Shown here piece after piece: positions 31,263 to 46,884 of a DNA stretch of 64,000 nucleotides. The DNA is from Desulfobacterales bacterium (lineage in GTDB: Bacteria > Desulfobacterota > Desulfobacteria > Desulfobacterales > Desulfosalsimonadaceae), in contig JAXHNP010000006.1 of the NCBI GenBank assembly GCA_034520365.1, positions 861,001 through 925,000 of the forward strand. Direction: 5' to 3'. A program made the translations under genes and the position numbers. The notes beneath the pieces are model-generated. The model worked only from the letters and a program-made list of their open reading frames with translations, was not told where the DNA came from and ran no database searches. Within the stretch, counting starts at the first letter, position 1. Every line of letters starts with the position of its first letter.

Positions 31263-31511
31263 TAGTCGTGCGACATTTATCTTTTTTTATAACATATCAC
31301 TTTACAAAAACCGGCGGTTCTGAGAAGGTAAATTTTTACGGATAGACACTGGGAAATCTTCTCCCTTTACCCCTCTTCCATTGATAGGAGAGAACGAATG
31401 AGGGGTGGCGACAACAACTTTCCCTTTACCCCTCTCCCGCCAAAGCGGGAGAGGGATTGGGTGAGGGGGGACATCAGCCAAAAACCAAAACCTGCGCTCA
31501 CACAAAACCCC

Positions 31512-32090
31512 ATGCCCGACTTCTATCAGACAAACTACAAAACCTATGACCAGCGCACCTTCACCATCGATCCCTCACCATTCCTGAATCCAGTCCTCGA
31601 AGCCATTCCTTCCGGCGCCTCCATCCTGGATATCGGCTGCGCCTCCGGCCGCGACCTCGTATGGTTTAAAAACAAGGGCTTCACCGTCACCGGATTTGAA
31701 AAATCCCCCGGCCTTGCCGCCCTGGCCCGCAAAAATGCCCGGTGCGACGTTATAGAAGGCGATTTTGAAACCTATGATTTCTCCATTCTATCATTTGACG
31801 CGGTCCTTTCCTCCGGCGCCTTTGTGCATGTGCCGCACGCCCGGCTGCCCGAGGTAATCAAAAGCATCAGCTTGGCGCTGGTTCAAAAGGGCTATTTCTA
31901 CATATCGCTCAAAAAAGGCGAGGGCACCAAAACCGATGATACCGGCAGAACCTTCTACCTGTGGCAGGATGCGGACTTAAGACAAATCTTTGACCGCACA
32001 GGCTTTGCGGTGCTAAACTATCAAACCAGTGAATCGGTCATGAATTCAAGGGATGTGTGGCTGGGGTATGTACTGCGGTTGAATAGATAG
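31512..32090 (+). CDS. Class I SAM-dependent methyltransferase
   Basis: 192 aa from the ATG at 31512. The frame is open further upstream but those codons are made of REP repeat sequence, so they are not counted. Motif I is SILDIGCASGRDLVWF (about 36); GFEKSPGL follows as the ribose-binding acidic strand, then VIEGDFETYDF and DAVLSSGAFVHV. The overall pattern is of a TehB/UbiE-like small-molecule methyltransferase; the substrate is unknown, and no N6-adenine or C5-cytosine DNA-methylase signature is present. 13 bases before the HNH endonuclease gene, so possibly co-transcribed. No clear ribosome binding site. Confidence 0.82.
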   Translation: MPDFYQTNYKTYDQRTFTIDPSPFLNPVLEAIPSGASILDIGCASGRDLVWFKNKGFTVTGFEKSPGLAALARKNARCDVIEGDFETYDFSILSFDAVLSSGAFVHVPHARLPEVIKSISLALVQKGYFYISLKKGEGTKTDDTGRTFYLWQDADLRQIFDRTGFAVLNYQTSESVMNSRDVWLGYVLRLNR

Positions 32091-32103: not shown

Positions 32104-33093
32104 ATGGATATGAAACATTCTGCACTTGATAAATTCAGCTTGAAACTAATCCGCCTGCGGACCGATAAAAACCGCAAGAAATGGTCTTTCCAAACCTGCC
32201 ATCAGGCGCCGCACAAGCCGTTTCTCCTGCTTGCAATTATGGATCACTTTGCTCAGGGTTTGATTACAGAAAATTTTATTGAGCCCGTTTTTGAGCTTGT
32301 GGATACATTTAATCATTACTGGCAGTCCATCATGCCGGTCGGCACCAAAGGCAATATGGCCTATCCCTTTCCCAGGCTTCAGAATGACGGAATTCTTCAA
32401 CTGATTCCCAACCCTGAATTTAACGGCAGAATCAATATTGAATCCATCTCCTCCATGAAAAAGCTCCGTCAACTCTGCATTGGGGCAAGGCTGGATGATG
32501 AGCTGTTCTTTCTCTTGAGTCAGCCACCCTCGAGAGAACAGCTAAGGGCGGCAATCATCAATCATTATTTCTCAGAAGCAATTCGGCCGGCAGTTTTAGA
32601 ATGCGGCGAAGTAAATATTAAATCCTATGAATACAGCCAGGAACTTTTAAAGGTTTCTGAAGAGCAAAGTTCATTCAAAACCGAGGATGAAATTACCCGG
32701 AACATAAAAATCCGGGATCAAGGATTTAGAAAGGCCATTGTCAGGCTGTATGAACATCGGTGCGCTCTATGCGGCATCCGGATGCTCACCCCCGAAGGCC
32801 ACACCGTGGTCGAGGCGGCCCACATTAAACCATGGAGCGAATCCCATGATGACCGCCCGACAAACGGCATGTCCCTATGCCGCCTCTGCCATTGGTCGTT
32901 TGATGAGGGCCTGATGAGTGTGGGCAGCGATTACGAGGTGCTGGTTTCAAAGCGGGTGGCCACTGAAAATAATTATCCCGGCCACATATTTACATTATCT
33001 GACAGGGTCATTTTTAAACCGGAAGGCCAAGCATTCTGGCCGGGTCAGAAGAATTTGGCATATCACCGGAATAATATTTTTATGGCCCAATGA
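32104..33093 (+). CDS. HNH endonuclease with an N-terminal DNA-binding head domain
   Basis: 329 aa. The C-terminal third is an HNH nuclease with two zinc knuckles: HRCALCGIR (about 218), EAAHIKPWSE (catalytic His), NGMSLCRLCHWSFDEG (Asn and His). The N-terminal domain (about 1-160) reads APHKPFLLLAIMDHFAQG, then AYPFPRLQNDGILQLIP. It resembles, from memory, the sulfur-binding head domain of ScoMcrA-type nucleases that cut phosphorothioated DNA; this is a suggestion only. No dnd modification genes are present. It lies between the methyltransferase and hsdR on the same strand, 34 bases before hsdR. Confidence 0.82.
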   Translation: MDMKHSALDKFSLKLIRLRTDKNRKKWSFQTCHQAPHKPFLLLAIMDHFAQGLITENFIEPVFELVDTFNHYWQSIMPVGTKGNMAYPFPRLQNDGILQLIPNPEFNGRINIESISSMKKLRQLCIGARLDDELFFLLSQPPSREQLRAAIINHYFSEAIRPAVLECGEVNIKSYEYSQELLKVSEEQSSFKTEDEITRNIKIRDQGFRKAIVRLYEHRCALCGIRMLTPEGHTVVEAAHIKPWSESHDDRPTNGMSLCRLCHWSFDEGLMSVGSDYEVLVSKRVATENNYPGHIFTLSDRVIFKPEGQAFWPGQKNLAYHRNNIFMAQ

Positions 33094-33127: not shown

Positions 33128-35470
33128 ATGAATAAAAAGTCTTTGAGCGAAAGGGTTATCTGCAGCAAATACATTACGCCGGCGCTGCAGGAAGCAGGCT
33201 GGGATTTGCATACCCAGATCCGCGAGGAAGTGACCTTTACCAACGGCCGGGTGATTGTAAAAGGGCAGGTGGCGGCCAGAGGCAAAGCCAAACGGGCGGA
33301 TTACATTCTTTATTATAAACCAAATATCCCGGTGGCTGTCATTGAGGCAAAGGATAACAATCACGCCGTCGGTTCAGGCATGCAGCAGGCCCTGGATTAT
33401 GCCGACATATTGGATGTGCCTTTTGTATTCAGCTCAAACGGAGACGGCTTTTTATTTCATGACCGGAGCAGCACCGGCGACCAAACAGAAACCGAGCTGA
33501 CACTTTCGGGATTTCCTTCGCCTGGTGTCTTGTGGCAGCGGTATTGTGCATATAAAGATATCGAACATACCGACCTCTCAATTGTTAAGCAGGACTATTA
33601 TACGGATGTTACCCGAAAAACCCCGCGCTATTATCAACGTATCGCCATTAACCGAACCATCGAAGCCATTGCCAGGGGGCAGAACCGGATTCTTTTGGTC
33701 ATGGCCACCGGCACCGGTAAAACCTTCACCGCCTTTCAGATTATCTGGCGGTTGTGGAAGGCCCGGGCCAAAAAGCGGATTTTATTTCTGGCGGATCGCA
33801 ATATCCTGGTGGATCAAACCATGGTCAATGATTTTAAACCATTCGGCTCGGCCATGACCAAGATCAAAAACCGGCAGGTGGACAAGTCTTATGAGATTTA
33901 CCTGGCGCTTTATCAAGCGGTTAGCGGCACCGAGGACTTCCAGAATATTTATAAGGATTTTTCCCGCGATTTTTTTGATTTGGTGATTATCGACGAATGC
34001 CACCGCGGCAGCGCGGCAGAAGATTCCGCATGGCGGGAAATCCTTGAATATTTTTCTTCCGCCACCCAGATCGGCATGACCGCAACACCCAAAGAAACCA
34101 AGTATGTCTCAAACATCCATTATTTCGGCGAACCCGTTTATGTCTATTCCCTGAAGCAAGGCATTAATGATGGATTCCTGGCGCCCTACAAAGTCATTCG
34201 GATCGATCTGGATAGAGACCTGACCGGCTGGCGGCCGGAAAGCGGCAAATGCGACAAATACGGCCAGGAGATTGAAGACCGGATTTATAACCAGAAGGAT
34301 TATGATAAGCAGCTTGTCTTGGAAAAGCGCACCCTGCTCGTGGCGAAAAAGGTTTCCGAATTTTTGAAAGCTATAGACCGCTGGGCCAAGACCATCGTAT
34401 TCTGTGAAGACATTGACCATGCCGAGCGGATGCGCCAGGCCCTTGTAAATGAAAACCCGGACCTGGCAGGTGCCAACAATAAATACATTATGCGAATCAC
34501 CGGTGACAGTCAGGAAGGAAAGCTTGAGCTGGACAATTTTATCATGCCGGACAGCGACTATCCGGTGATCGCCACCACTTCCCGCCTGCTGTCCACCGGC
34601 GTGGACGTGCAGACCTGCAAGCTGATCGCCCTTGACCGGGTGATTAATTCCATGACCGAGTTCAAGCAGATCATCGGCCGGGGCACCCGCATACACGAAG
34701 ATTACGGCAAGTACTTTTTTTCAATCATGGATTTTAAAAAAGCCACCGAGCTTTTTGCCGACCCCCAGTTTGACGGCGAGCCGGTGCAAATTTATGAGCC
34801 CGGCCCGGAAGAGCCGCCGGTGCCGCCCGATCCGCCGCCGGGCGAGGGCGGGCAAGACGGCGATGATGAAGGCGTCATTATTGACCCGCCTGAGCCAACC
34901 CCCGGCCGGATGAAATATTTTGTCCATGATGTTGAAGTCAATATCGTTGCCGAGCGCATTCAGTATTACGGAAAAGACGGCAAGCTGGTAACCGAATCCA
35001 TCAAGGATTACACCAAAAAGACGGTTAAAAAAGATTATGCCTCAATGGCCGAGTTTCTGAAACGCTGGTCTGCTGCTGAGCGAAAAAAGGCGGTGATTGA
35101 AGAGCTTGAGGAAGAAGGCGTTTTGTTTACGCCTTTGACAGAGGCCGTGGGTAAAGACTATGATCCGTTTGATTTGATCTGCCATGTTGTCTATGACCAG
35201 CCGCCCCTGACCCGGCGGGAACGCGCCGAGAATGTGCGCAAAAATAATTATTTCACCAAGTACGGCGAGAAGGCGGGCAAAGTCCTTGAGGCATTAATTC
35301 AAAAATACGCGGATGAAGGCATAGAAAACATTGAAGACATGAACGTCCTGCGGTTGAAACCCATAAATGAGCTTGGCACGCCGGTTGAGATCATCCAAAG
35401 CTTCGGCGGCCGCGATAAATACATAAATGCAGTCCGGGAGCTGGAAGAGGAAATCTACAGCGCCGCATAA
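33128..35470 (+). CDS. hsdR: Type I restriction enzyme R subunit
   Basis: 780 aa, the endonuclease/translocase chain of a type I restriction system. The PD-(D/E)XK nuclease is near the N-terminus (ADYILYY…AVIEAKDN: Asp58, Glu73, Lys75). Superfamily 2 helicase motifs follow: motif [11 protein letters not shown] (about 192-199), motif [10 protein letters not shown] (about 288), motif III GMTATP, and motif [15 protein letters not shown] Pro-rich linker ([18 protein letters not shown], about 557) leads to the C-terminal EcoEI-type domain that docks on the methylase. Shorter than many HsdR (about 1000 aa) but typical of this branch. Overlaps hsdM by one base (TAATG). Confidence 0.95.
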
Positions 35471-36948
35471 TGTCACTTTACCTGAAAGAGCGCAAACATA
35501 TGAACATCAGCACCACCATTAAAGCCATACAAGATATCATGCGAAAAGACGTGGGCGTTGACGGCGACGCACAGCGGATCAGCCAGATGGTCTGGATGAT
35601 TTTTTTAAAAATATTTGATGACCGGGAACAGGAGCTGGAAGTCCTGGATGACAATTACCAAAGCCCCATCCCAGCCCACCTCCGCTGGCGGAACTGGGCC
35701 CATGATCCGGAAGGCATGACCGGCGAAGAATTGGAGGAGTTTGTCAACAACCAGCTCTTTCCCGGGTTAAAGGAAATCGCCGTATCATCGGAGACGGACC
35801 GGAAGGCCCTCCTGATCCGGGATATTTTTCAAGGGGCCTACAATTACATGAAATCCGGCACCCTGATGCGGCAGGTGATCAACAAATTAAATGAGATCGA
35901 CTTCAACCGCTCAGAGGACCGGCACCTGTTCGGCGATATTTACGAGCAGATTTTAAAAGATCTCCAAAGCGCGGGCAATGCCGGCGAATACTATACACCG
36001 CGGGCGGTCACCCAGTTTATGGTGGATATGACTGACCCCAAACTCGGTAAAACCGTATTGGACCCGGCCTGCGGCACCGGCGGGTTTCTCACCTGCGCCA
36101 TCGAACATATGCGGAAACACGATGTCAGCACCGTGGATGATGAAATCCGGCTGCAGAATTCCATTTACGGGGTTGAAAAAAAACCCCTGCCGCACCTGTT
36201 GTGCACCACCAACATGCTGCTTCACGGCATTGATGTGCCGGTGCAGATCCGGCATGATAACACCCTGGCCCGGCCGCTAAAGGATTATTCAAAAAAGGAG
36301 CGGGTCGATGTGGTGGTCACCAATCCGCCCTTCGGCGGCATGGAGGAAGACGGGATTGAAGCCAACTTCCCCAAAAAATTCCAGACCCGGGAAACAGCGG
36401 ATCTTTTCCTGGTGTTGCTCATGCATCTTTTAAAAGAGGGCGGCCGGGCCGGCATCGTCCTGCCGGACGGCACCCTTTTCGGTGAAGGCGTGAAAACCCG
36501 GATCAAGGAAAAGCTCCTCTCCGAATGCAACCTCCACACCATTGTCCGGCTGCCAAACGGCGTGTTCAACCCCTATACCGGCATCAAGACCAACCTGCTG
36601 TTTTTTACCAAGGGCCAAAAGACAACCGATATCTGGTATTTCGAGCACCCCTATCCGCCGGGTGTTAAATCCTACAACAAGACCAAACCGATCCGGATTG
36701 AGGAGTTCGACCTTGAAAAACAGTGGTGGGAAAACCGGGAGGAAACTCCATACGCCTGGAAGGTCTCAGCCGAGCAGGTAAAGGCCAGCAATTACAACCT
36801 GGACATCAAAAACCCTTATACAAAAAAACAAGACAACGGCGACCCGGAAAAACTGCTGGCCGAGTATAAACAGATGCTCGCCGATATTGCCGATACCCGA
36901 AACAATCTGAAACAAGAACTCATGGCCTGCCTGGGGAGGGCGTCCTGA
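35470..36948 (+). CDS. hsdM: Type I restriction-modification M subunit (adenine-N6 methylase)
   Basis: 492 aa. HsdM N-terminal helical domain (about 12-160: MNISTTIKAIQDIMRKDVGV…WMIFLKIFD), then the N6-adenine methylase core with the SAM site DPACGTGGFL (about 198) and catalytic NPPFGG (285-290). DEIRLQNSIYGVEKKPL marks the following region. The C-terminal tail contacts HsdS. ATG at 35470 overlaps the hsdR stop; an internal ATG ten codons later is an alternative. Gene order hsdR-hsdM-hsdS with overlapping ends indicates one operon. Confidence 0.95.
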   Translation: MSLYLKERKHMNISTTIKAIQDIMRKDVGVDGDAQRISQMVWMIFLKIFDDREQELEVLDDNYQSPIPAHLRWRNWAHDPEGMTGEELEEFVNNQLFPGLKEIAVSSETDRKALLIRDIFQGAYNYMKSGTLMRQVINKLNEIDFNRSEDRHLFGDIYEQILKDLQSAGNAGEYYTPRAVTQFMVDMTDPKLGKTVLDPACGTGGFLTCAIEHMRKHDVSTVDDEIRLQNSIYGVEKKPLPHLLCTTNMLLHGIDVPVQIRHDNTLARPLKDYSKKERVDVVVTNPPFGGMEEDGIEANFPKKFQTRETADLFLVLLMHLLKEGGRAGIVLPDGTLFGEGVKTRIKEKLLSECNLHTIVRLPNGVFNPYTGIKTNLLFFTKGQKTTDIWYFEHPYPPGVKSYNKTKPIRIEEFDLEKQWWENREETPYAWKVSAEQVKASNYNLDIKNPYTKKQDNGDPEKLLAEYKQMLADIADTRNNLKQELMACLGRAS

Positions 36949-38672
36949 TGCGGCCGGATCTGCTGTTTGACAACTTCAACCTGGTCACCGAAGCCTCTGA
37001 CGGCATCCCCAAAATGCGGGAGATGATCCTGCAGCTGGCCGTGCAGGGCAAACTTGTACCCCAGGACCCCAATGATGAACACGCATCAGAACTGCTCAAG
37101 CGGATTTCAGCAGAAAAAGAGCGGCTGGCAAAGGAAGGCAAAATAAAGAAGAGCAAGCCGCTTCCGCCGGTTGATCCGGATGAAGTGCCGTATGAGTTGC
37201 CAGTAGGGTGGGAGTGGGTTCGTTTGGGTGAAATCCAAACATTTATTAATGGTTATGCATTTAAAAGCGCTGATTATCAGAATGAAGGGGTTGGCATTGT
37301 AAGAATTGGAGATATATCTAATGGTCAAATTTCAAAACATAATATGAAATATGTCTCCTTTGAGTTAGCGGATTCATTAGATCCAAATCTTTTTGTTCAG
37401 AAAAATGACCTATTAATTGCAATGTCAGGGGCAACAACAGGTAAGCTTGGTCTCAATAGAACTGATGAAATTTTGATCTTAAATCAACGTGTTGGAAAAT
37501 TTGACACCATCTTGATTAACAAAGAATTTCTGTATTTTTATTTAAATACAAGAATTAAAGAAAACTTAAGGATCTCGGCGGGAAGCGCTATACAAAATTT
37601 GAGTACAAAACAAATAAATAATACCTTTACGCCACTTCCTCCCATTAAAGAACAAGAGCGAATTGTTGAAAAAGTCGACCAACTCATGACCCTATGCGAC
37701 CAAATGGAGGCAGAAAAAGAGAAAACACTAAAACACCGGGTAACACTGAACGCCACCGCCATCGATCACCTTCTTGGAGCCAGATCAGCCGATGAGTTTG
37801 ACAAGCACTGGCACCTGATCGCAAATAATTTTGATCTCCTCTATGATAACCCGGAAAACGTCCAAAAACTGCGACAAGCCATTCTGCAGCTTGCCGTCTC
37901 CGGCAAGCTCATCCCCCAGGACCCCAGCGACGAACCCTCATCAGAACTCTTAAAACGCATCAAAGCCGAAAAAGACCGCCTGATCAAAGAAGGCAAAATC
38001 AAAAAGCCCAAATCCCTGACGCCTGTTGAGCCGAATGAGGTGCCTTATGAATTGCCGGAGGGCTGGGCGTGGACAAGATTGGGCACAGTCGGCCTTATCA
38101 ATCCAAGAAATAGCTCTGATGATAAATCCCCTGTATCCTTTGTCCCTATGACATTAATTCCTTCAAAATATGGGGAAACCATTATAACTGAAAAAAGAAC
38201 GTGGGGCGAAATTAAATCTGGTTACACGCACTTTGCGGAAAATGACGTGGTACTTGCCAAAATAACGCCATGCTTTCAGAACGGTAAATCAGCAGTCATG
38301 AAAGGCCTTGAAAACGGGATAGGTGCCGGAACAACTGAGCTGCACGTATTCCGCCGAATTGGTAACACAATTGTCCCAGAATATGTCTTGCTATACTTGA
38401 AATCACCTAAATTTATTGAAGAGGGTATTCCTAAGATGACAGGCTCAGCAGGACAAAAACGAGTCCCTAAGGATTATTTCTCACAAAACCCTTTTCCTTT
38501 ACCACCGATAGAAGAGCAGAAAAGAATTATTCTGAAAGCCAATCATCTAATGAACCTATGCGACCAAATGGAGGCTTATTTAGAAAATTCCTCCTCTCAA
38601 GCCGATACCTTATTCAATGCCATTGCCGAGCAAGTAACCGCTTCATCAACGAATAGCGCATATGTCAATTGA
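36948..38672 (+). CDS. hsdS: Type I restriction-modification specificity subunit
   Basis: 574 aa with two target-recognition domains, each preceded by the same spacer helix module: QLAVQGKLVPQDP…ELLKRISAEKERL (about 26-65) and QLAVSGKLIPQDP…ELLKRIKAEKDRL (about 312-350). The linkers VPYELPVGWEWVRLGEI and VPYELPEGWAWTRLGTV also repeat. Recognition domains lie about 85-235 and 370-530, each ending in LPPIKEQERIV or LPPIEEQKRII. The recognition-domain DNA is visibly richer in A and T than the repeats, as is common for exchanged target-recognition domains. Overlaps hsdM as TGATG. Confidence 0.95.
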   Translation: MRPDLLFDNFNLVTEASDGIPKMREMILQLAVQGKLVPQDPNDEHASELLKRISAEKERLAKEGKIKKSKPLPPVDPDEVPYELPVGWEWVRLGEIQTFINGYAFKSADYQNEGVGIVRIGDISNGQISKHNMKYVSFELADSLDPNLFVQKNDLLIAMSGATTGKLGLNRTDEILILNQRVGKFDTILINKEFLYFYLNTRIKENLRISAGSAIQNLSTKQINNTFTPLPPIKEQERIVEKVDQLMTLCDQMEAEKEKTLKHRVTLNATAIDHLLGARSADEFDKHWHLIANNFDLLYDNPENVQKLRQAILQLAVSGKLIPQDPSDEPSSELLKRIKAEKDRLIKEGKIKKPKSLTPVEPNEVPYELPEGWAWTRLGTVGLINPRNSSDDKSPVSFVPMTLIPSKYGETIITEKRTWGEIKSGYTHFAENDVVLAKITPCFQNGKSAVMKGLENGIGAGTTELHVFRRIGNTIVPEYVLLYLKSPKFIEEGIPKMTGSAGQKRVPKDYFSQNPFPLPPIEEQKRIILKANHLMNLCDQMEAYLENSSSQADTLFNAIAEQVTASSTNSAYVN

Positions 38673-38822
38673 TCCAAAATAATACGCACCATTATTAACA
38701 TAACCGGGTCGAACAAAAACCATCTGAATTTATTTGAAAAGGTCGCACAAGTGCAATTTGCTAATGATGTTGAGCTCTATGTCAAAATGACCTTTTTCGA
38801 TATTGATAAGTTATTAAATTAA
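38673..38822 (+). pseudogene. Possible C-terminal gene fragment between hsdS and the DUF262 gene
   Basis: In frame with hsdS but after its stop codon, 49 codons read SKIIRTIINITGSNKNHLNL, then FEKVAQVQFANDVELYVKMT and FFDIDKLLN before a TAA. It has no start codon and no recognised family, but the composition is protein-like. It may be the tail of a gene removed when the DUF262 gene or hsdS was rearranged. Chance open frame cannot be excluded. Confidence 0.25.
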
Positions 38823-38838
38823 CGAAGGATTTTTAAGC

Positions 38839-40974
38839 ATGCAAATTTATCAAATATTGGACAAAATAGATGACAATCAGCTTTTCGTGCCAGCTTTTCA
38901 ACGGGAATACGTTTGGCGAAAAGACGATGCCAAGAAATTGATGTCATCGCTCATTAAGGAGTATCCTACAGGAACCATGCTGACATGGGAAACAACGAAT
39001 CCGCCGGAGCTTAAGGGAAATGTTAAGTATGATGAGCGGATGGGATCAGTTAAGCTGATACTTGACGGGCAACAGCGCATCACTACCCTTTATATGCTGA
39101 TTCGTGGGAAAATTCCGCCTTATTACACCAAGGAAGAAATTAAAAATGATCCCAGGAAACTCTATGTAAATTTGGAAACGCTTGAGCTGGAGTATTATAA
39201 AATTAAAAAGATGCAGAACAATCCGTTATGGGCAGAATTAACCGAAATATTTTTAGGAAATATAAAATATCGACATATTATTAAAGCGCTAAAGAGCAAA
39301 GGGGATACGATTACAGATGAAAGAGACGATCTTATATATGACAATTTCTCAGCCATAGAGAAAATATGCGATCGCGATTTTGTTGAACAGGTAATACCGG
39401 TGCACGCCAATATACGGGAGGCGATTAATATATTTTACATCGTGAATGCCAGCGGGGTTAACCTGAGTGATGCAGAATTAGCCCTCGCACAAATCTCCGG
39501 TTATTGGCCAAAGGCAAGAGAGAGATTTAAATCTAAACTGTTTTCCATGGAAAAAGAGGGTTTTGTATTTTCATTGGATTTTATTGTCTATGTTTTATTG
39601 GGGGTTCTTCACCACGGAGGATCTGAAATGACCAAACTGCATTCTCCGGAAAACAAAGAGCGGTTAATTAATGCTTGGGATCAACTAGAATCCCAGACCC
39701 TTGATTATTTGATTAACATATTGCGACAGCATTTTTTTATCGATCATACAAAGGAGATAAATTCCGTTTATGCCTTGGTGCCGATTATTGTCTATACTTT
39801 CAATAAAGGCAAAAATCATCTTACAGGTGAAGAAATCCAAAAAATCAAAAAGTGGTTCTATTATTCTCAAATTCGGCAGCGATATGTAAGCCAGCTACCC
39901 CAGAAATTGGACAAGGATGTCGGTATTGTCGTTAAATCAGAGCAACCGTTTGATGATCTCCTGAATATTATTAAGCTTGAACGTTCTCTTGAAATAACCT
40001 CGGATGAATTTGTCGGTCGTGATATCAGACATCCGTTATATGCTCTAATGCGGTGGTATTTTAAAAGTCAAAATGCGGTTTGTTTTTCAACAGGCATTGG
40101 AATCCGTCGGAATATGGGTGAAAAATATATGCTGGAATGGGATCATATCTTTCCTTATTCGGTGTTGAAGGATAATGGCTATAATCCGAAAAATCGTATT
40201 CATTATTCGCTTATGCAGGAAATTACCAATCGGGCCATACTTACGCAAGTTGCAAATCGCACAAAATCCAATTTAATGCCGGAGGACTATCTGGCATGGG
40301 TTGAAAACAGGTTTCCGGATGCACTTCGCCGTCAATGCATACCAATGGACAAAAATCTGTGGAAAATTGATAGATTTAGAGACTTTTTAGAGGCAAGGCG
40401 GCGCATGCTGGCAGATGAGTTGAATGCTTTTCTTCAAGCAATTACCGAAACCCAAGAAACCGAAATGGAGATGTCCGTTGAAGAACTCATATCAGAGGGC
40501 GAAAGTAATGAACTTGAATTTAAATCGTCTTTGCGTTGGGACTATAGGCAAGGCAAAGTCAACTCAGAGCTTGAGCAGGTAGTTTTAAAAACCCTTGCGG
40601 CATTCAGCAATTCAGACGGTGGCACGCTTTTAATAGGCGTGAAAGATGATGGGGAGTTATTGGGGCTACAACCGGATTTTAATTCATTAAATGGAAACAA
40701 AGATAAATTTGAATTGCATCTGAGAAACCTTATAAACAAAACATTTGGAAAGGTATTTGCCACAAATAATATAAATATTGGTTTTTATGTACTCGATGAT
40801 GAAGAAATCTGTAAAATTGAAATAAAAAAAGGTGAAAAGCCGCAATTCATAGAAGAAACTGACAGGCATGGCAAAAAAATCAAAAAATTTTATGCCCGAA
40901 GCGGCAATTCTTCGCAAGAGTTTGCTATAGATGAAGCAACCGAATTTATTAAATCAAGATTTAATAATAGTTGA
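38839..40974 (+). CDS. DUF262-HNH-AlbA_2 fusion, GmrSD-like defence nuclease
   Basis: 711 aa. Residues 1-200 are DUF262 (ParB-like): VPAFQREYVW (about 17-26) and the nucleotide-site motif LILDGQQRITTLY (DGQQR 76-80). About 230-420 is helical. An HNH/DUF1524-like site follows: LEWDHIFPYS (Asp-His about 435), then TNRAILTQVANRTKSNLMP with conserved Asn and Lys. These are the two parts of GmrS-GmrD type IV restriction enzymes. A C-terminal AlbA_2/Schlafen-like domain is added from about 553: ESNELEFKSSLRW, TLAAFSNSDGGTLLIGVKDDG and KFYARSGNSS. GAAGGA precedes the ATG. A/T-richer than its neighbours, suggesting transfer. Role: probable restriction of modified phage DNA. Confidence 0.88.
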   Translation: MQIYQILDKIDDNQLFVPAFQREYVWRKDDAKKLMSSLIKEYPTGTMLTWETTNPPELKGNVKYDERMGSVKLILDGQQRITTLYMLIRGKIPPYYTKEEIKNDPRKLYVNLETLELEYYKIKKMQNNPLWAELTEIFLGNIKYRHIIKALKSKGDTITDERDDLIYDNFSAIEKICDRDFVEQVIPVHANIREAINIFYIVNASGVNLSDAELALAQISGYWPKARERFKSKLFSMEKEGFVFSLDFIVYVLLGVLHHGGSEMTKLHSPENKERLINAWDQLESQTLDYLINILRQHFFIDHTKEINSVYALVPIIVYTFNKGKNHLTGEEIQKIKKWFYYSQIRQRYVSQLPQKLDKDVGIVVKSEQPFDDLLNIIKLERSLEITSDEFVGRDIRHPLYALMRWYFKSQNAVCFSTGIGIRRNMGEKYMLEWDHIFPYSVLKDNGYNPKNRIHYSLMQEITNRAILTQVANRTKSNLMPEDYLAWVENRFPDALRRQCIPMDKNLWKIDRFRDFLEARRRMLADELNAFLQAITETQETEMEMSVEELISEGESNELEFKSSLRWDYRQGKVNSELEQVVLKTLAAFSNSDGGTLLIGVKDDGELLGLQPDFNSLNGNKDKFELHLRNLINKTFGKVFATNNINIGFYVLDDEEICKIEIKKGEKPQFIEETDRHGKKIKKFYARSGNSSQEFAIDEATEFIKSRFNNS

Positions 40975-41032
40975 TATCCAATCATTGCAACTTTTAATTT
41001 CTCAAAGACCGCCGTTAAATTTTACGGGAAGT

Positions 41033-41085
41033 AAAATAGTTTATGAAAATCTCAAATTATACTTGAGATTTTCATAAACTATTTT
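41033..41085. repeat. Perfect 23-bp inverted repeat (hairpin H1)
   Basis: AAAATAGTTTATGAAAATCTCAA (shown as its first 20 bases AAAATAGTTTATGAAAATCT) and its exact complement are separated by a 7-base loop. No T-run follows, so it is not a standard terminator. A related hairpin lies at 44242-44284; the two bracket the DUF2293-rloA-rloB-yaiI unit. Confidence 0.9.
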
Positions 41086-41142
41086 GGTTCAATTGCTATC
41101 CGCATACAAACCATGAGAAAGTCTTTAGGATTAGGAAGCAAA

Positions 41143-41814
41143 ATGGCAAAAACAGAAGATCTGAAGGTTTTTATTTCAAACCGCGAATCAACGTGCGATG
41201 AATGCGGGGAGGAGCTGGGTCGAAAGGCATGGATTACTCTGGATAAGGATAAGGGCGCGCTTTGCCTTTCCTGTGCGGATATGGATCATTTGGTGTTCCT
41301 GCCTTCCGGGGATGCGGCATTGACGCGCCGTGCCAAGAAGCATTCAAAGTTGTCGGCAGTGGTTCTCAAGTGGAGCAGGGCCAGGAAGCGCTATGAACGC
41401 CAGGGGCTTATTGTTGAAGAGCCGGCGCTGGATCGGGCGGAAACCGAGTGTCTGGCCGATGAAGAATTGCGGGAAAGCCGCCGACAGCGTGAGGCGGAGC
41501 GGCGGGAAAATCTTGATCGCGAATATGTCAAAAAGTTTGCCGGGCGGATAGGGGAGTTGTATCCCAAGTGTCCGAAAAAGACGGCTATGGCGGTGGCCGA
41601 GCATGCCTGTCGCAAGCATAGCGGCCGGGTGGGCCGTTCGGCTGCGGCAAAAGAATTTGACGAAGAAGCCGTGCGGCTGGCGGTGAGGGCGCACGTGCGC
41701 CACGAAGAAACGCCGTATGATGAGCTGCTCTTGAAGGGGTTTGATCGACTTTCCGCCCGCATGGAGGTCGAGGATCAGGTGCGGGATGTGCTTGATCGGT
41801 GGAAGGGGCGGTGA
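41143..41814 (+). CDS. DUF2293 protein, copy 1
   Basis: 223 aa. N-terminal zinc-binding-like pair (CDECGEELGRKAW and CLSCADMDHL), a basic charged middle (RESRRQREAERRENLDREYV) and the C-terminal DUF2293 domain (RVGRSAAAKEFDEEAVRLAV, HVRHEETPYDELLLKGFDR). Function of the family is unknown. The ATG at 41143 matches the start of copy 2 at 45498; upstream codons in the same frame are not shared by copy 2. The two copies are nearly identical except at both ends, indicating a recent duplication or gene conversion. Confidence 0.85.
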   Translation: MAKTEDLKVFISNRESTCDECGEELGRKAWITLDKDKGALCLSCADMDHLVFLPSGDAALTRRAKKHSKLSAVVLKWSRARKRYERQGLIVEEPALDRAETECLADEELRESRRQREAERRENLDREYVKKFAGRIGELYPKCPKKTAMAVAEHACRKHSGRVGRSAAAKEFDEEAVRLAVRAHVRHEETPYDELLLKGFDRLSARMEVEDQVRDVLDRWKGR

Positions 41815-41849
41815 AACATGCTGATCAGAAGGAATGAGGAAAATATTTT

Positions 41850-41926
41850 TTAAATCCTCCCAATCCCTCCTTTTCCAAAGGAGGGGTGTACAATCCTCCC
41901 AGACCCTTCTTTTCAAAGGAGGGGTA
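41850..41926. repeat. REP-like hairpins after DUF2293 copy 1
   Basis: Two units of the type CCCTCC…CAAAGGAGGGGTGTACAATC. A matching pair follows DUF2293 copy 2 at about 46205-46275, as part of the same duplication. Confidence 0.7.
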
Positions 41927-42012: not shown

Positions 42013-42209
42013 TATTGATCTGCAAATGCTTTCGGTCTTGGCAAGAGGTGCTGAAACAAAGGTCAAACCCGTTTCGAGATCTTTTCACCAACCTTCCAAA
42101 TGTTTCCCAATGGCCTCTTTTTTGAGAGAAAAAATCTCTTGAAAAGATTATTTTACGTGTTAAATATAAAATAAAAACGTAATTGAGCGATTTTTTCTCG
42201 GAGGGTATC

Positions 42210-43553
42210 ATGTTAATATCATTTACCTTAGAAAACTGGCTGTCATTTAAAGAGCGCTCCACGTTCTCCATGGTGGCAAGCCGTGAAAAGCAGCACGCAA
42301 CCCGGGTGCCCCGGATCAATGAATATAAAATGAGTCTGCTGCCTGTCGCAGCCATCTACGGCGGTAATGCGTCCGGCAAAACCAATCTGCTCAAGGCCTT
42401 AAGCTTTGCCAAAAACTTGATTGTCCGGGGGACCCAGCCGGAGTCGCATATTCCGGTGGAACCTTTCCGTCTGGATCCGGCCTGCCTGAAAGCCCCGACC
42501 CGGCTTTCTTTTGAATTGTTCACCGAGAACCGCTGCTATGAATTCGGATTCAAGGTGACCAGTGAAAAGGTGGTTGAAGAATGGCTGGTTGAAATCCGCA
42601 AGACCACGGAAAAAGAATTATACCACCGGCAAGGGGATCAAATCCGGTTTGCCCCGGAGCTAAAGAAAAAGCAGTTCCTGCAATTTGCCTTTCAGGGCAC
42701 CCGGGATAATCAATTGTTTTTAACCAATGCCGTCCATCAGAAGGTTGAGACCTTCAAGCCGATCTATAAGTGGTTTCGGGACAAGCTGGTATTGATCGCA
42801 CCGGACAGCCGCTTTGGGCCACTCGAAATCGTCCTTCAAAAAGATCATCCTTTGAGCCAGCAGATGAGCAAAACATTGAGCCAGTTGGATACGGGCATTG
42901 CCCGTTTGGGTGACGAGTACATTGAACTGGAAAACCTGCCCATGCCGGAAAAGCTTCAGCAGCAGTTAATGGGCGATTTGTCTGAAGGAGAACGGGTGGA
43001 CTTCAGAATCGAGCCGGATCAGGACCGTTTTCTGATTACCAAAAAGGATGGGCGGATAAAAGCCCGCAAACTGGTCAGTTACCACAGCAACACCCAGGGC
43101 GAAGAAATCCGGTTTGAAATTACCCATGAATCCGATGGCACCCGGCGCGCCATTGACCTGCTGCCCGCATTTCTGGATTTAATCGGCGGAACGGACAGGG
43201 TCTATGCCATTGATGAGCTGGATCGCAGCCTGCACACGCTTCTCTCTCAATCCCTGTTGAATGGGTGTCTGGATTCAGTAGATCCGGATTCCCGCGCACA
43301 GCTGCTGTTTACAACGCATGACGTGCTGCTGATGGATCAAAAAATTTTCCGCCGGGATGAAATGTGGGTGACTGAGCGCGATCCCATGGGATGTGCAAGC
43401 CTTATTGCTTTTAGCGATTACAAGGATATCCGTTCGGATAAGGACATCCGGAAGAGTTATCTCCAGGGGCGGATTGGCGGTATTCCCCGTATATTGTTGT
43501 CCGATCTGTCAAATCAGCGTTTCACGGACAAAGCCCAAGGAGATGCTAGCTGA
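42210..43553 (+). CDS. RloA-like AAA ATPase (defence-associated)
   Basis: 447 aa. Walker A is AAIYGGNASGKTNLLKAL (about 50-66), the ABC-type signature region is ESDGTRRAIDLLP (about 309), Walker B VYAIDELDRSLH (about 331) and the switch His LLFTTHDVLLMD (about 366). This is the layout of RloA/OLD-like SMC-type ATPases (AAA_15/AAA_21). GGAGGG lies about 6 bases before the ATG. It is followed with a TGATG overlap by the start of a RloB-like partner, which is broken. RloA/RloB pairs were first noticed beside type I restriction genes, as here; the pair is thought to act in phage defence, so this copy may have lost its effector. Confidence 0.85.
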   Translation: MLISFTLENWLSFKERSTFSMVASREKQHATRVPRINEYKMSLLPVAAIYGGNASGKTNLLKALSFAKNLIVRGTQPESHIPVEPFRLDPACLKAPTRLSFELFTENRCYEFGFKVTSEKVVEEWLVEIRKTTEKELYHRQGDQIRFAPELKKKQFLQFAFQGTRDNQLFLTNAVHQKVETFKPIYKWFRDKLVLIAPDSRFGPLEIVLQKDHPLSQQMSKTLSQLDTGIARLGDEYIELENLPMPEKLQQQLMGDLSEGERVDFRIEPDQDRFLITKKDGRIKARKLVSYHSNTQGEEIRFEITHESDGTRRAIDLLPAFLDLIGGTDRVYAIDELDRSLHTLLSQSLLNGCLDSVDPDSRAQLLFTTHDVLLMDQKIFRRDEMWVTERDPMGCASLIAFSDYKDIRSDKDIRKSYLQGRIGGIPRILLSDLSNQRFTDKAQGDAS

Positions 43554-43773
43554 TGACGAAAAAACGCCGTCCATTTAGACGACGTAAACCCGTACTGGAT
43601 TAAATGGCAACCTGGCGGTTCACAAGCTTTACCCTAAAATACCGGATGCGATTCGCCGGGCAAAAGAAAAGGACCAGCCGCCATGTAAGAAATGGCCGAA
43701 ACAAAAAGGCTCCACGGTTTATCTGCTGGTGGAAAAGCTTTTTGTGGACACGGCCTGCCTGCCAAAGGAATGA
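43553..43773 (+). pseudogene. rloB remnant 1 (internal deletion and frameshift)
   Basis: The frame opens MTKKRRPFRRRKPVLD and stops at 43601-43603, a typical basic RloB N-terminus. In another frame (43588-43773) the C-terminus of the same kind of protein is intact: NGNLAVHKLYPKIPDAIRRA, then KEKD…GSTVYLLVEKLF and VDTACLPKE, stop. About two-thirds of a normal RloB (around 200 aa) is missing between the two parts. The missing middle survives as a fragment in the duplicate at 46283-46415, which supports this reading. Confidence 0.7.
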
Positions 43774-43783
43774 GGGATACGAT

Positions 43784-44242
43784 TTGTTAAACATTTTTGT
43801 AGATGCTGATGCCTGTCCGGTGAAATCCGAAGTATACCGGGTTGCGGACCGGTACCGCCTGGAGGTCACGCTGGTGGCCAATTCCCGGATGCGCGTGCCA
43901 AAAGAAGGAAGGGTGGCTTTGAAGATTGTGGCTGAGGGCCCTGATGCGGCAGATGACTGGATCGCGGATCAGGCGGAGGCGGGTGATATTGTGGTCACTG
44001 CCGATATTCTGCTGGCCGGCCGCTGCATCAAAAAGGGCGCACGCGTCATTGCCCCCACAGGCAAGCCGTTTACGGAAGACAACATAGGTTCGGCTGTCGC
44101 AGGCCGGGACCTGATGGCCGAGATTCGGAGCACCGGGGAGATGACACCCGGCCCGCCGCCTTTGCAGAAGCGCGATCGATCCCGTTTTCTGCAGCAGCTT
44201 GAGAATGTGATACAGGCCATTCGGAGAGAGCCTGGCAAGTAA
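43784..44242 (+). CDS. yaiI: YaiI/YqxD family protein (DUF188), copy 1
   Basis: 152 aa, full family length. Opening motif LNIFVDADACPVKSEVYRVA, followed by VANSRMRVP, GPDAADDWIADQAEAGDIVV, TADILLAGRCIKKGA and RDLMAEIRSTGE. This is a PIN-like fold family with conserved acidic residues (DADACP, DAADDWI, TADI), and nuclease activity is suspected but unproven. TTG start at 43784 with GAGGGA upstream; the family usually begins just before this motif. Follows the rloB remnant by ten bases. A nearly identical second copy at 46426 is broken by a stop codon. Confidence 0.9.
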   Translation: MLNIFVDADACPVKSEVYRVADRYRLEVTLVANSRMRVPKEGRVALKIVAEGPDAADDWIADQAEAGDIVVTADILLAGRCIKKGARVIAPTGKPFTEDNIGSAVAGRDLMAEIRSTGEMTPGPPPLQKRDRSRFLQQLENVIQAIRREPGK

Positions 44243-44284
44243 GTTTATGAAAATTTTAAATTCAACTTGAGATTTTCATAGACT
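44242..44284. repeat. 18-bp inverted repeat (hairpin H2), related to H1
   Basis: AGTTTATGAAAATTTTAA and TTGAGATTTTCATAGACT are separated by 7 bases. The three mismatches would all be G-U pairs in the plus-strand RNA. Same core (TTTATGAAAAT…ATTTTCATA) as the perfect hairpin at 41033-41085. It begins at the last base of the yaiI stop and ends 16 bases before the next ATG, so it could act in RNA or as an operator. Confidence 0.75.
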
Positions 44285-44300
44285 ATGATATGGTCAAGTC

Positions 44301-45470
44301 ATGATAAAGCGAGATATTAGCCAGGAATTAATCGAATCCGCTAAAGAATACCCGGTTGTCACTGTTTTCGGGCCCCGCCAGTCAGGAAAAACCACCCTGG
44401 TCCAAATGGTATTCCCCGACAAGCCGTATTTCTCACTTGAAAATCCGGATATCCGCCTGGCTGCGGAAGAAGATCCCAGGGGATTTTTAAATGATGTGCC
44501 GGCGGGAGCGGTTCTCGACGAAGTCCAGCGTTTGCCGGTATTGCTTTCTTATATTCAGGGCATTGTTGATCAGAAGAAGCACAATGGCATGTTTATTCTG
44601 ACAGGCAGTCATCAGCCGGATGTCCATCAGGCTGTCAGCCAGACACTGGCAGGACGGACGGCTTTATTGACCCTGCTGCCTTTTTCTTTGTCGGAACTTC
44701 GCAATTACAAATCTCAATGGGATGCTTATGAGATTATTGTAAAGGGTTCTTATCCGAGACTCCATGAGGAGGGTCTGACGCCCGGGAGATTCTATAACGG
44801 ATATATTCAGACCTATGTTGAGCGCGATGTCAGAACACTTATTAATGTAAAAGATCTTGAACTGTTCCAACGGTTTTTGGTGCTGCTCGCCGGCCGGGTC
44901 GGTCAGGTGCTGAATTATACATCGCTTGGCAATGATATCGGGGTATCGGGAACAACCGTTAAAAACTGGATCAGCGTTTTAAAAGCGTCGTTTGTGGTGT
45001 TTGAACTCCAGCCCTTTTATGAAAACATTAACAAGCGGGTCATAAAGTCTCCCAAACTTTATTTTACAGATACCGGCCTGGTGGCCCATCTCCTGGGTAT
45101 TGAAACCCCGGACCAGGCCAAGCGGGACCCCCTGCGGGGCGGACTTTACGAAAACCTCATTATCCTTGAAGCGCTGAAAGCCTTATACAATGCCGGAAAA
45201 AGACCGCAGATGTATTTTTACCGGGATACGAACGGAAATGAAGTGGATCTGATCATAAAGCATCAGCGCCATCTGGTTCCGATTGAAATTAAATCAGCCG
45301 AGACTTTCGCAAGAGATTTTTTAAAGGGGATTGAGCAGTTTTGCAGTGCTGCCAAGGGACCGTGCAAACCGGGTTATGTTTTGTATAACGGTTCGGAATC
45401 CTTTAATATCAGGGGTATTTCAGTGCAGAATCCTTTAATTCATGGCTTTTATAAGGCGGAATGGCTTTGA
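44301..45470 (+). CDS. AAA_14/DUF4143 ATPase
   Basis: 389 aa. Walker A is FGPRQSGKTTLV (24-34), Walker B VLDEVQRLP (71-79), and the sensor strand is FILTGSHQPDV (about 97). After the AAA_14 part, a winged-helix-like stretch (NDIGVSGTTVKNWISVL, about 213) leads to DUF4143 with a PD-(D/E)XK-like core, GNEVDLIIKHQRHLVPIEIK (about 311-330). These proteins are abundant and mobile in bacteria and archaea; function is unclear. No ribosome binding site is evident, but a hairpin (H2) sits just upstream. It lies between the two copies of the DUF2293-yaiI unit and looks like a later insertion with H2, or was part of the original unit. Confidence 0.88.
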   Translation: MIKRDISQELIESAKEYPVVTVFGPRQSGKTTLVQMVFPDKPYFSLENPDIRLAAEEDPRGFLNDVPAGAVLDEVQRLPVLLSYIQGIVDQKKHNGMFILTGSHQPDVHQAVSQTLAGRTALLTLLPFSLSELRNYKSQWDAYEIIVKGSYPRLHEEGLTPGRFYNGYIQTYVERDVRTLINVKDLELFQRFLVLLAGRVGQVLNYTSLGNDIGVSGTTVKNWISVLKASFVVFELQPFYENINKRVIKSPKLYFTDTGLVAHLLGIETPDQAKRDPLRGGLYENLIILEALKALYNAGKRPQMYFYRDTNGNEVDLIIKHQRHLVPIEIKSAETFARDFLKGIEQFCSAAKGPCKPGYVLYNGSESFNIRGISVQNPLIHGFYKAEWL

Positions 45471-45497
45471 AATGGTTTTTGAGGATGGGGTTATAAG

Positions 45498-46193
45498 ATG
45501 GCTAAAACAGATGATCTGAAGGTTTTTATTTCAAACCGCGAATCAGTGTGCGACGAATGCGGCGAGGAACTGGGACGAAAGGCATGGATTACGCTGGAAA
45601 AGGATAAGGGCGCGCTTTGCCTTTCCTGTGCGGATATGGATCATTTGGTGTTCCTGCCTTCCGGGGATGCGGCATTGACGCGCCGTGCCAAGAAGCATTC
45701 AAAGTTGTCGGCAGTGGTTCTCAAGTGGAGCAGGGCCAGGAAGCGCTATGAACGCCAGGGGCTTATTGTTGAAGAGCCGGCGCTGGATCGGGCGGAAACC
45801 GAGTGTCTGGCGGATGAAGACTTGCGGGAAAGCCGCCGACAGCGTGAGGCGGAGCGGCGGGAAAATCTTGATCGCGAATATGTCAAAAAGTTTGCCGGGC
45901 GGATAGGGGAGTTGTATCCCAAGTGTCCGAAAAAGACGGCTATGGCGGTGGCCGAGCATGCCTGCCGCAAGCATAGCGGCCGGGTGGGCCGTTCGGCTGC
46001 GGCAAAAGAATTTGATGAAGAGGCTGTCCGGCTGGCGGTTAGGGCGCACGTGCGCCACGAAGAAACGCCGTATGATGAGCTGCTCTTGAAGGGGTTTGAT
46101 CGACATTCCGCCCGCATGGAAGTCGAGGATCAGGTGCGGGATGTGCTTGATCGGTGGAAGGGGGCGGGGAAACATGCTGATCAGAAGGAATGA
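45498..46193 (+). CDS. DUF2293 protein, copy 2
   Basis: 231 aa; nearly identical to the protein at 41143 (CDECGEELGRKAW, DUF2293 core HVRHEETPYDELLLKGFDR with one Leu-to-His change). Extra G residues near the end shift the frame so that the protein ends GAGKHADQKE instead of stopping after KGR. GAGGATGGGG lies upstream of the ATG. The REP-like hairpins that follow (46205-46275) are also duplicated. Confidence 0.85.
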   Translation: MAKTDDLKVFISNRESVCDECGEELGRKAWITLEKDKGALCLSCADMDHLVFLPSGDAALTRRAKKHSKLSAVVLKWSRARKRYERQGLIVEEPALDRAETECLADEDLRESRRQREAERRENLDREYVKKFAGRIGELYPKCPKKTAMAVAEHACRKHSGRVGRSAAAKEFDEEAVRLAVRAHVRHEETPYDELLLKGFDRHSARMEVEDQVRDVLDRWKGAGKHADQKE

Positions 46194-46282
46194 GGAAAAT
46201 ATTTTTTAAATCCTCCCAATCCCTCCTTTTTCAAAGGAGGGGTGTACAATCCTTTCAGATTTTCAAAGGAGGGGTGTGCAAT

Positions 46283-46415
46283 CCTATCAGCAATCCGAAG
46301 TTTGAGTATTGGCTGCTGCTTCATTTTGAACGATGAAGATGGCGGCGGTGTTAAAAGCTCCCGGGCATGTTCGGAAAAGCTTTTTGTGGACACGGCCTGC
46401 CTGCCAAAGGAATGA
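46283..46415 (+). pseudogene. rloB remnant 2 (central and terminal fragments)
   Basis: Reads SNPKFEYWLLLHFE (46289 on), the hallmark central motif of RloB. After a one-base frameshift it continues NDEDGGGVKSSRACSEKLFV, then DTACLPKE, stop. The last 14 codons are identical to the end of remnant 1. The N-terminus is absent, and no rloA copy is present here. Together with remnant 1 this shows that both copies descend from a complete rloB. Confidence 0.72.
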
Positions 46416-46425
46416 GGAATCCGAT

Positions 46426-46884
46426 TTGCTAAACATATTTGTAGACGCTGATGCCTGTCCGGTGAAATCCGAAGTATACCGGGTTGCGGACCGCTACCGG
46501 CTGGAGGTCACGCTGGTGGCCAATTCCCGGATGCGCGTGCCAAAAGAAGGAAGGGTGGCTTTGAAGGTTGTGGCTGAGGGCCCTGATGCGGCAGATGACT
46601 GGATCGCGGATCAGGCGGAGGCGGGTGATATTGTGGTCACCGCCGATATTCTGCTGGCCGGCCGCTGTATCAAAAAGGGCGCACGCGTCATTGCCCCCAC
46701 AGGCAAGCCGTTTACGTAAGACAACATTGGTTCGGCTGTCGCGGGCCGGGACCTGATGGCCGAGATTCGGAGCACCGGGGAGATGACACCCGGCCCGGCG
46801 CCTTTGCAGAAGCGCGATCGATCCCGTTTTCTGCAGCAGCTTGAGAATGTAATACAGGCCATTCGGAGAGAGCATACGGGATAG
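46426..46884 (+). pseudogene. yaiI: yaiI copy 2, broken by a nonsense codon
   Basis: Nearly identical to copy 1 (43784-44242) over 152 codons, but the Glu codon after GKPFT is TAA here (46717-46719), leaving 97 codons. The remaining frame is otherwise intact to the stop at 46882-46884, so the inactivation is recent. The duplicated block runs from 46373 to 46873 (43731 to 44231 in copy 1) and includes the last rloB codons. The truncated product lacks the C-terminal third. Confidence 0.85.

Follow-up and report, generated by a model that had tools for sequence, protein, structure and literature searches.

A DUF262-HNH-AlbA_2 fusion protein that accompanies type I restriction-modification genes: a candidate GmrSD/BrxU-like restriction enzyme with a built-in Schlafen-type RNase effector

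Both GmrSD-like proteins embedded in restriction loci (TgvAB and HEC-05/BrxU) and a restriction-embedded tRNase (PrrC) are known. TgvAB, encoded on VPI-2 of Vibrio cholerae, is a GmrSD-like system that is located in a type I operon and protects against phages with hypermodified DNA. BrxU (PADLOC model HEC-05) consists of a DUF262 domain, a helical middle, and an HNH domain, and is found beside other defence loci. SspE senses phosphorothioate DNA, and in both SspE and BrxU the HNH nuclease is controlled by NTP. In EcoprrI, the gene encoding PrrC, a translation-stopping RNase, lies inside a type I operon; proteins of the PrrC type are ABC-type ATPases with a HEPN-like nuclease, which is an anticodon nuclease, and to our knowledge they contain no DUF262, HNH, or AlbA_2 domain. 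A GmrSD-like DNase is combined with a predicted RNase domain in VNG7073 (DUF262-HNH-HEPN; PMC3710099). The additional domains of GmrSD proteins given in the accessible portion of Machnicka et al. (2015) are DUF4268, DUF4357, and DNA_binding_1, and no word beginning with AlbA was found in that portion. In the accessible portion of PMC12839542, GmrSD and Schlafen RNases are separate accessory BREX effectors.

Here, we analyzed a window (the whole stretch of DNA under study, 64,000 nucleotides from a member of the Desulfobacterales) in which a single gene encodes DUF262, HNH, and AlbA_2 domains (Table 1). The protein, hereafter the fusion protein, matches BrxU over residues 1 to 533, whereas BrxU/HEC-05 lacks AlbA_2. 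It shares with TgvAB the embedding in type I R-M genes, the DUF262 motifs, and the H/N/N residues of the HNH domain, although TgvAB consists of two proteins instead of one, and the accessible text on TgvAB makes no mention of AlbA_2. The predicted fold over residues 1 to 540 is shared with SspE, which also lacks AlbA_2. The gene is in a place similar to that of prrC, with an RNase role that we infer. The AlbA_2 fold, an acidic triad, and an ExK motif are common to the fusion protein, the SAMD9 tRNase, and the corresponding domains of SLFN11, SLFN13, and SLFN14; however, SAMD9 and the Schlafens are animal proteins of other architectures, and the N-domain of SLFN13 has two lobes compared to the single lobe of the fusion protein. 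VNG7073 carries HEPN where the fusion protein has AlbA_2.

The preliminary description of this DNA knew of no functional account of such a protein, and in agreement with this, no description of a fusion of DUF262/GmrSD with AlbA_2/Schlafen was found in the portion of the open-licence PMC literature that was covered; as far as that literature goes, the three-part fusion itself has not been found described. Our main reading, to which we assign a probability of roughly 0.5, is that the fusion protein combines, in one chain and in linkage with type I R-M, a restriction enzyme like GmrSD and BrxU with an RNase effector of the Schlafen type.

Table 1. Positions in the window of the fusion gene, its domains, and the adjoining features.
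Feature	Positions	Strand	Basis or remark
Class I methyltransferase, first in same-strand run	31398..32090	+	
HNH_2 endonuclease, upstream of hsdR	32104..33093	+	
HsdR, EcoAI family	33128..35470	+	NCBIfam restrict_EcoAI, 1212 bits
HsdM	35470..36948	+	N6_Mtase, HsdM_N
HsdS, two specificity stretches	36948..38672	+	Methylase_S, two stretches
Fusion gene DUF262-HNH-AlbA_2, 711 aa	38839..40974	+	One open frame, ATG start
GmrSD_N/DUF262 domain, aa 3-218	38845..39492	+	Pfam E 4e-30
DUF262 motifs: QR (21-22), DGQQR (76-80), FxxxN (199-203)			
His-Me finger HNH core, aa 430-476 (D435, H436, N464, N473)	40126..40266	+	HNH_4 sub-threshold, invariant residues, fold match
SLFN_AlbA_2 domain, aa 548-709	40480..40965	+	Pfam; fold similar to SAMD9 and SLFN (Z 9-13)
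Span of the Schlafen-type acidic triad, with K562	40501..40647	+	E555 (40501-40503), E560 (40516-40518), D603 (40645-40647)
Terminator-like hairpin, 20-bp stem, T-rich tail	41036..41082	+	Shortly 3' of the fusion gene; consensus match only

Domains, predicted structure, and conserved residues

The preliminary description had pointed to a DGQQR motif, a DHIFPYS motif, and a C-terminal AlbA_2 domain in the 711-aa protein, and had read the first two domains as GmrSD-like and the third as Schlafen-like. All three are present, with D76 to R80 in the DUF262 domain and D435-H-I-F-P-Y-S441 as the HNH motif, and both readings were borne out by profiles, predicted fold, and invariant residues. The DUF262 motif set that we used (QR, DGQQR, FxxxN) was that given in PMC11411939. 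The best PADLOC profile, HEC-05, covered residues 2 to 534 (E 1e-46) and 27 to 595 of its 600 model positions, so that nearly the full model is represented and AlbA_2 lies outside the matched part; the SLFN_AlbA_2 match of Pfam spans residues 555 to 694 (E 1e-19; score 71 bits, cut-off 25) and, like that of GmrSD_N, clears its cut-off by a wide margin. The HNH_4 score on residues 430 to 450 (20.7 bits) was slightly under its cut-off of 22. In a diverse alignment of 42 fusion members, GmrSD_N and SLFN_AlbA_2 were each found in 42, HNH_4 in 13, and GmrSD_C (PF07510) in one; therefore, the HNH call leans on the invariant residues and on the BrxU match more than on Pfam. An NCBIfam search with the fusion protein gave no match at E 0.01. 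No PrrC-like domain was present among the Pfam or PADLOC matches, and the likeness to PrrC is one of operon position only.

An AlphaFold model of the fusion protein, built with the 42-sequence alignment, had a mean pLDDT of 87.1 and a pTM of 0.58, and the domain folds are therefore surer than their mutual placement. In Foldseek, BrxU was the top match (E 6.5e-15), followed by SAMD9 and a bacterial AlbA_2 protein, and then by Schlafens (about E 2e-3 and above). VIA-align placed BrxU on residues 1 to 533 with Z 21.5 (461 aligned, 20% identity) and an rmsd of 15.9, which, in a predicted model, fits a differing placement of the domains. Full-length SspE chains aligned with residues 1 to 540 (Z 10.4 to 11.2, with large rmsd) and a C-terminal SspE chain with residues 208 to 540 (Z 12.1); the DndBCDE-DndI entry 9jfl gave Z 10 to 12, and the HNH domain of NmeCas9 gave a match on residues 397 to 512 that is weak by its Z of 5.0 (rmsd 4.0, 99 aligned).

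Structure prediction had been proposed as a check on the C-terminal part, and the AlbA_2 fold was recovered. On residues 544 to 711, the matches were the Corynebacterium protein 3lmm (Z 13.7, rmsd 3.1, 141 aligned), human SAMD9 (Z 12.7, rmsd 3.5, 156 aligned), the rabbit SAMD9 tRNase domain (Z 11.7, rmsd 3.4, 149 aligned), and SLFN5, 11, 12, 13, and 14, the best chain of each having Z 9.0 to 9.9, with SLFN5 at Z 9.9 (rmsd 4.1, 131 aligned). The DNase I-like subdomain of RNase E, which the SLFN13 authors considered topologically related, gave a weak Z of 4.4 to 4.5.

Residue conservation was evaluated in an alignment of 75 full-length fusion proteins (74 distinct) from bacteria and archaea. Of these, 68 came from the 80 genome loci described below and three from genomes of the window's phylum; the others were the window copy and the plasmid copies of Sinorhizobium, Haloquadratum, and halophilic archaeon DL31. 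Invariant in all 75 rows were the DUF262 residues Q21, R22, D76-G-Q-Q-R80, F199, and N203, the HNH residues H436, N464, and N473, and, among others, the AlbA_2 residues E555, E560, K562, N591, G594, G595, G600, D603, R687, and G689. Position 435 was D in 72 rows and H in three. The least conserved stretch examined was residues 538 to 550, with a mean majority share of 0.41 compared to 0.63 to 0.74 in the three domains. In the main set, pairwise distances in the DUF262 and AlbA_2 domains were correlated (r = 0.76, or 0.68 without three divergent rows), and by these sequence comparisons the two domains travel together. The dN/dS ratio of AlbA_2 was at most 0.15 in every computable pair, most pairs being saturated.

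By motif and predicted fold, we assign E555, E560, and D603 as the counterparts of the triads E205/E210/D248 of rat SLFN13, the activity of which is diminished by mutation of any one of them, and E184/E196/D241 of SAMD9, in which nucleic-acid binding needs K198, K214, and R221. The spacing of E555 and E560 equals that of E205 and E210 in SLFN13, and K562 is two residues past E560, as K198 is past E196 in the ExK motif of SAMD9. Stand-alone AlbA_2 relatives with a hydrophobic N-terminus likewise have the triad; therefore, its invariance characterizes this AlbA_2 branch and is not specific to the fusion. Sequence and model thus make cleavage of RNA or tRNA by the AlbA_2 domain plausible.

Close stand-alone AlbA_2 relatives were present at four loci (L012, L013, L014, and L018; 40 to 43% identity). 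Their hydrophobic N-terminal part is possibly membrane-anchoring, and a similar gene of 185 aa adjoins three of the four.

The AlbA_2 domain could instead serve only to bind nucleic acid or to oligomerize, keeping a GmrSD-like DNase on its DNA without cleaving RNA; the protein would then be an ordinary type IV enzyme with an additional arm. AlbA_2 is described in PMC11221667 as typically DNA- and/or RNA-binding and multimerizing, SLFN5 is cited there as binding tRNA without cleavage, the SAMD9 domain structure was solved with DNA, and a close relative without AlbA_2 exists (L099). However, the acidic triad, invariant in 75 of 75 rows, is not obviously needed for plain DNA binding, and an active tRNase domain, that of rabbit SAMD9, is among the nearest folds, and so we consider a purely binding role unlikely, albeit one that deserves weight.

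Distribution and a second fusion lineage

Relatives of the fusion protein were collected, and the best-scoring 80 of 261 were kept as genome loci. The fusion was one open frame in 68 of these 80, which rules out an artefact of annotation or frameshift, although selection of the 80 by score from 261 means that this is not an unbiased rate of AlbA_2 carriage. The 12 other loci comprise five that are interrupted (L032, L071, L078, L094, L098), three cut by a contig end (L075, L085, L095), two that stop inside AlbA_2 (L080, L097), and two that stop before it: L099 clearly, and L092, for which one frame was read, with only 166 bp left before the contig ends. The remainder of the protein can therefore apparently exist alone, as in the close relative L099.

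Judging by the record titles as deposited, many for MAGs, the best 80 of 261 relatives come from about 17 phyla, including Cyanobacteria, Bacteroidota, Proteobacteria, Verrucomicrobia, Chlorobiota, Omnitrophota, Planctomycetota (Brocadiaceae), Atribacteria, Gracilibacteria, Peregrinibacteria, and Aenigmatarchaeota. Haloarchaeal copies form a deeper branch at 34 to 35% identity. Another copy is carried by pSymA of Sinorhizobium meliloti (L004, WQO97353.1). A tree of residues 1 to 535 was discordant with taxonomy, which, MAG labels permitting, speaks for transfer between phyla. At least four full-length copies were listed among 395 genomes of the window's phylum, one of them in the window's own genome. 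A viral scan with the single fusion protein as query gave no relative. A phage origin of the gene was also considered and is ruled out, as no match extended beyond residue 556, the start of AlbA_2, in 15 IMG/VR relatives and eight phage records.

A second lineage is represented by a 750-aa protein with GmrSD_N and SLFN_AlbA_2 (L150), the gene of which is between hsdS and hsdR with ends that overlap or nearly touch, and by its close relative of 751 aa in another genome (L130), near which hsd genes were not found. In the DUF262-HNH tree, which carries a long-branch warning, L130 and L150 group with the AlbA_2-less proteins of L132 and L139 at 100/100, outside the main clade. Therefore, GmrSD-like proteins probably acquired AlbA_2 on at least two independent occasions. 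The case for a second fusion rests on this tree; an AlbA_2-alone tree was not used because 12 of its 39 inner branches were starred. In a sample of 32 long DUF262 proteins from the window's phylum, AlbA_2 was found on one, which by E-value is the second fusion; AlbA_2 is thus uncommon on other DUF262 proteins. At L019 (G389:C54), which is at a contig end, an AlbA_2 fragment follows a tail that resembles the end of a DUF262-HNH protein, and this may be a third fusion case cut by the contig end.

Gene order and defence neighbours of the fusion gene

In the window, the fusion gene closes a same-strand run directly after a complete type I R-M set. Between hsdS and the fusion gene lie 166 bp without a promoter-like site; in the region 38500-41200 there were six such sites, fewer than in shuffles (mean 9.5). 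An AAGGA sequence ends 9 nt upstream of the ATG. The fusion gene has a GC fraction of 0.381, lower than that of hsdRMS (0.488) or of the window as a whole (0.51), and therefore the fusion was possibly acquired apart from its neighbours.

Several other features of the window were observed. The hsdS frame stays open for 49 codons past hsdS (38673-38822), ending DVELYVKMTFFDIDKLLN, and this stretch is perhaps the tail of a lost gene. At the opposite end of the run from the fusion gene, the HNH_2 protein scored 133 bits against the NCBIfam model of a phosphorothioate-DNA restriction endonuclease, below its cut-off of 180, and is a possible modification-sensing nuclease. Downstream, DUF2293 genes (41140-41925 and 45495-46275; 95.9% over 787 bp) and DUF188 genes (43731-44231 and 46373-46873; 97.0% over 501 bp) occur as near-duplicates. 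An AAA_21/AbiLi-like gene (42183-43553) separates DUF2293 from DUF188 in the first copy, and a DUF4143 ATPase gene (44301-45470) separates one copy from the other, an arrangement that looks like insertion of defence genes into a duplicated site. Two related palindromic stretches of 45 nt, one shortly past the fusion gene (41038-41082) and one where the first DUF188 gene ends (44242-44286), are 89% alike.

Gene order was compared at 83 loci, namely the 80 plus L147 (which repeats L035), L148, and L150 (the second type). Within 5 kb on the same strand (F, fusion gene; M, S, and R, the hsd genes), the orders were MS-F-R at 10 loci, R-F-MS at 10, MSR-F at five, M-F at four, F-MSR, RS-F-M, and F-R at three each, and others at eight; no hsd gene was present at 37, partly owing to short contigs. 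The slot of the fusion gene in the operon thus varies, and the type I association therefore outlives rearrangement. Nearest gaps numbered 71 in this set, and 30 of them were between -8 and +12 bp. Among the 80 loci, hsd genes were on both sides at 22 and on at least one side at 43. The suggestion that homologues be looked for in defence islands was therefore answered affirmatively, type I R-M operons being the most frequent setting.

The association was compared with that of other DUF262 genes by using M, R, and S profiles derived from the hsd genes near fusions, on loci with at least 4 kb of both flanks, the 46 fusion loci being from many phyla and the 19 control loci from the window's phylum only (L130 was excluded from the controls because it carries AlbA_2). 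It was found that hsdM or hsdR was present on the same strand within 6 kb at 33/46 fusion loci and 4/19 control loci (Fisher p 2.6e-4), both were within 6 kb at 26/46 and 1/19 (p 8.6e-5), and an hsd gene was within 300 bp at 23/46 and 1/19 (p 5.4e-4). These p-values overstate independence because several fusion loci are closely related (Sphingomonadales-type L046, L047, L049, L073, and L074; Chitinophaga MAGs L060, L065, and L069; Flavihumibacter L052 and L086). Without the flank filter, the values were 43/80 and 6/31 for M or R, and 32/80 and 1/31 for M and R.

At loci without clear hsd genes, chosen neighbours were scanned, and eight of 10 matched PADLOC defence models, with none at L041 and L039. 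The matches were a DUF499 ATPase and a DUF1156 methylase, with weaker HmaC and HmaB, at L070; TmtA and a type II REase model at L057; a type IIG enzyme and a helicase at L029; a TIR-like protein at L042; and a type IIG enzyme at L050. Pfam on 10 more neighbours gave Mrr_cat (L007), Eco57I (L050), SIR2_2 (L038), a helicase (L026), a nucleotidyltransferase (L037), and AAA/SMC-type ATPases (L028, L071), as well as ordinary neighbours, an aldo/keto reductase (L051) and a Cpn60 chaperonin (L054); there was no match at L042. In DL31, an annotated DUF1156 protein and a helicase are 6-9 kb downstream of the fusion copy. Mostly, although not always, the fusion gene accompanies DNA-modifying defence loci, type I above all.

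A location inside the operon in shifting slots, like that of prrC in EcoprrI, and genes that overlap or nearly touch are also what a PrrC-like guard would show, that is, a protein kept latent by its cognate type I complex and freed when a phage inhibits or bypasses HsdR/M/S, such that lost type I function and not modified DNA is the trigger. We consider such a guard quite unlikely, as the HsdR partners of about 780, 920, and 1060 aa belong to different type I lineages, which speaks against a single fixed partner, and some copies adjoin DUF499/DUF1156 or type IIG-like genes instead. That the gene is an independent passenger, a mobile defence gene merely landing in R-M operons and functionally unlinked to type I restriction, would agree with its low GC relative to hsdRMS, with the copies away from hsd genes, and with the use of the hsdS-hsdR slot by DarTG2 and another gene pair, but is improbable given the hsd enrichment over other DUF262 genes and the second fusion lineage, in which one of the two genomes likewise has the gene between hsdS and hsdR.

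Proposed working and meaning

In architecture, the DUF262 and HNH parts resemble BrxU, TgvB, and SspE, and AlbA_2 resembles animal domains that cleave tRNA. In the preferred reading, a restriction enzyme with a built-in RNase effector, the DUF262 part would bind NTP and detect DNA that the type I enzyme has failed to stop, modified phage DNA being the likeliest, as judged from the distant relatives BrxU and TgvAB. Turnover of the NTP would alter the shape of the protein, the HNH domain would then cut or nick the DNA, and the same switch would free the AlbA_2 domain, leading to cleavage of tRNA or other RNA and a stop in translation. For the cell, the sequence of events would be type I restriction, type IV-like restriction, and translation shut-off, the last two residing in one polypeptide and directed at phages that evade type I restriction. 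The fuller proposal, that DNA cutting and a Schlafen/SAMD9-type tRNase are joined in one NTP-gated chain that serves as the second and third defence line in type I operons and was assembled at least twice, is put forward tentatively, at slightly less than even odds.

The fusion occurs widely, is encoded by one gene, and has clear active-site residues that can be mutated; its distribution suggests repeated recruitment of two-step effectors by type I operons. If AlbA_2 is an active RNase, DNA restriction and a Schlafen/SAMD9-type RNase would be present on one prokaryotic chain, and the question of which DNA signal switches the RNase on would become directly askable. If the fuller proposal is true, GmrSD restriction would be tied directly to the tRNase chemistry of the human SAMD9/SLFN antiviral proteins.
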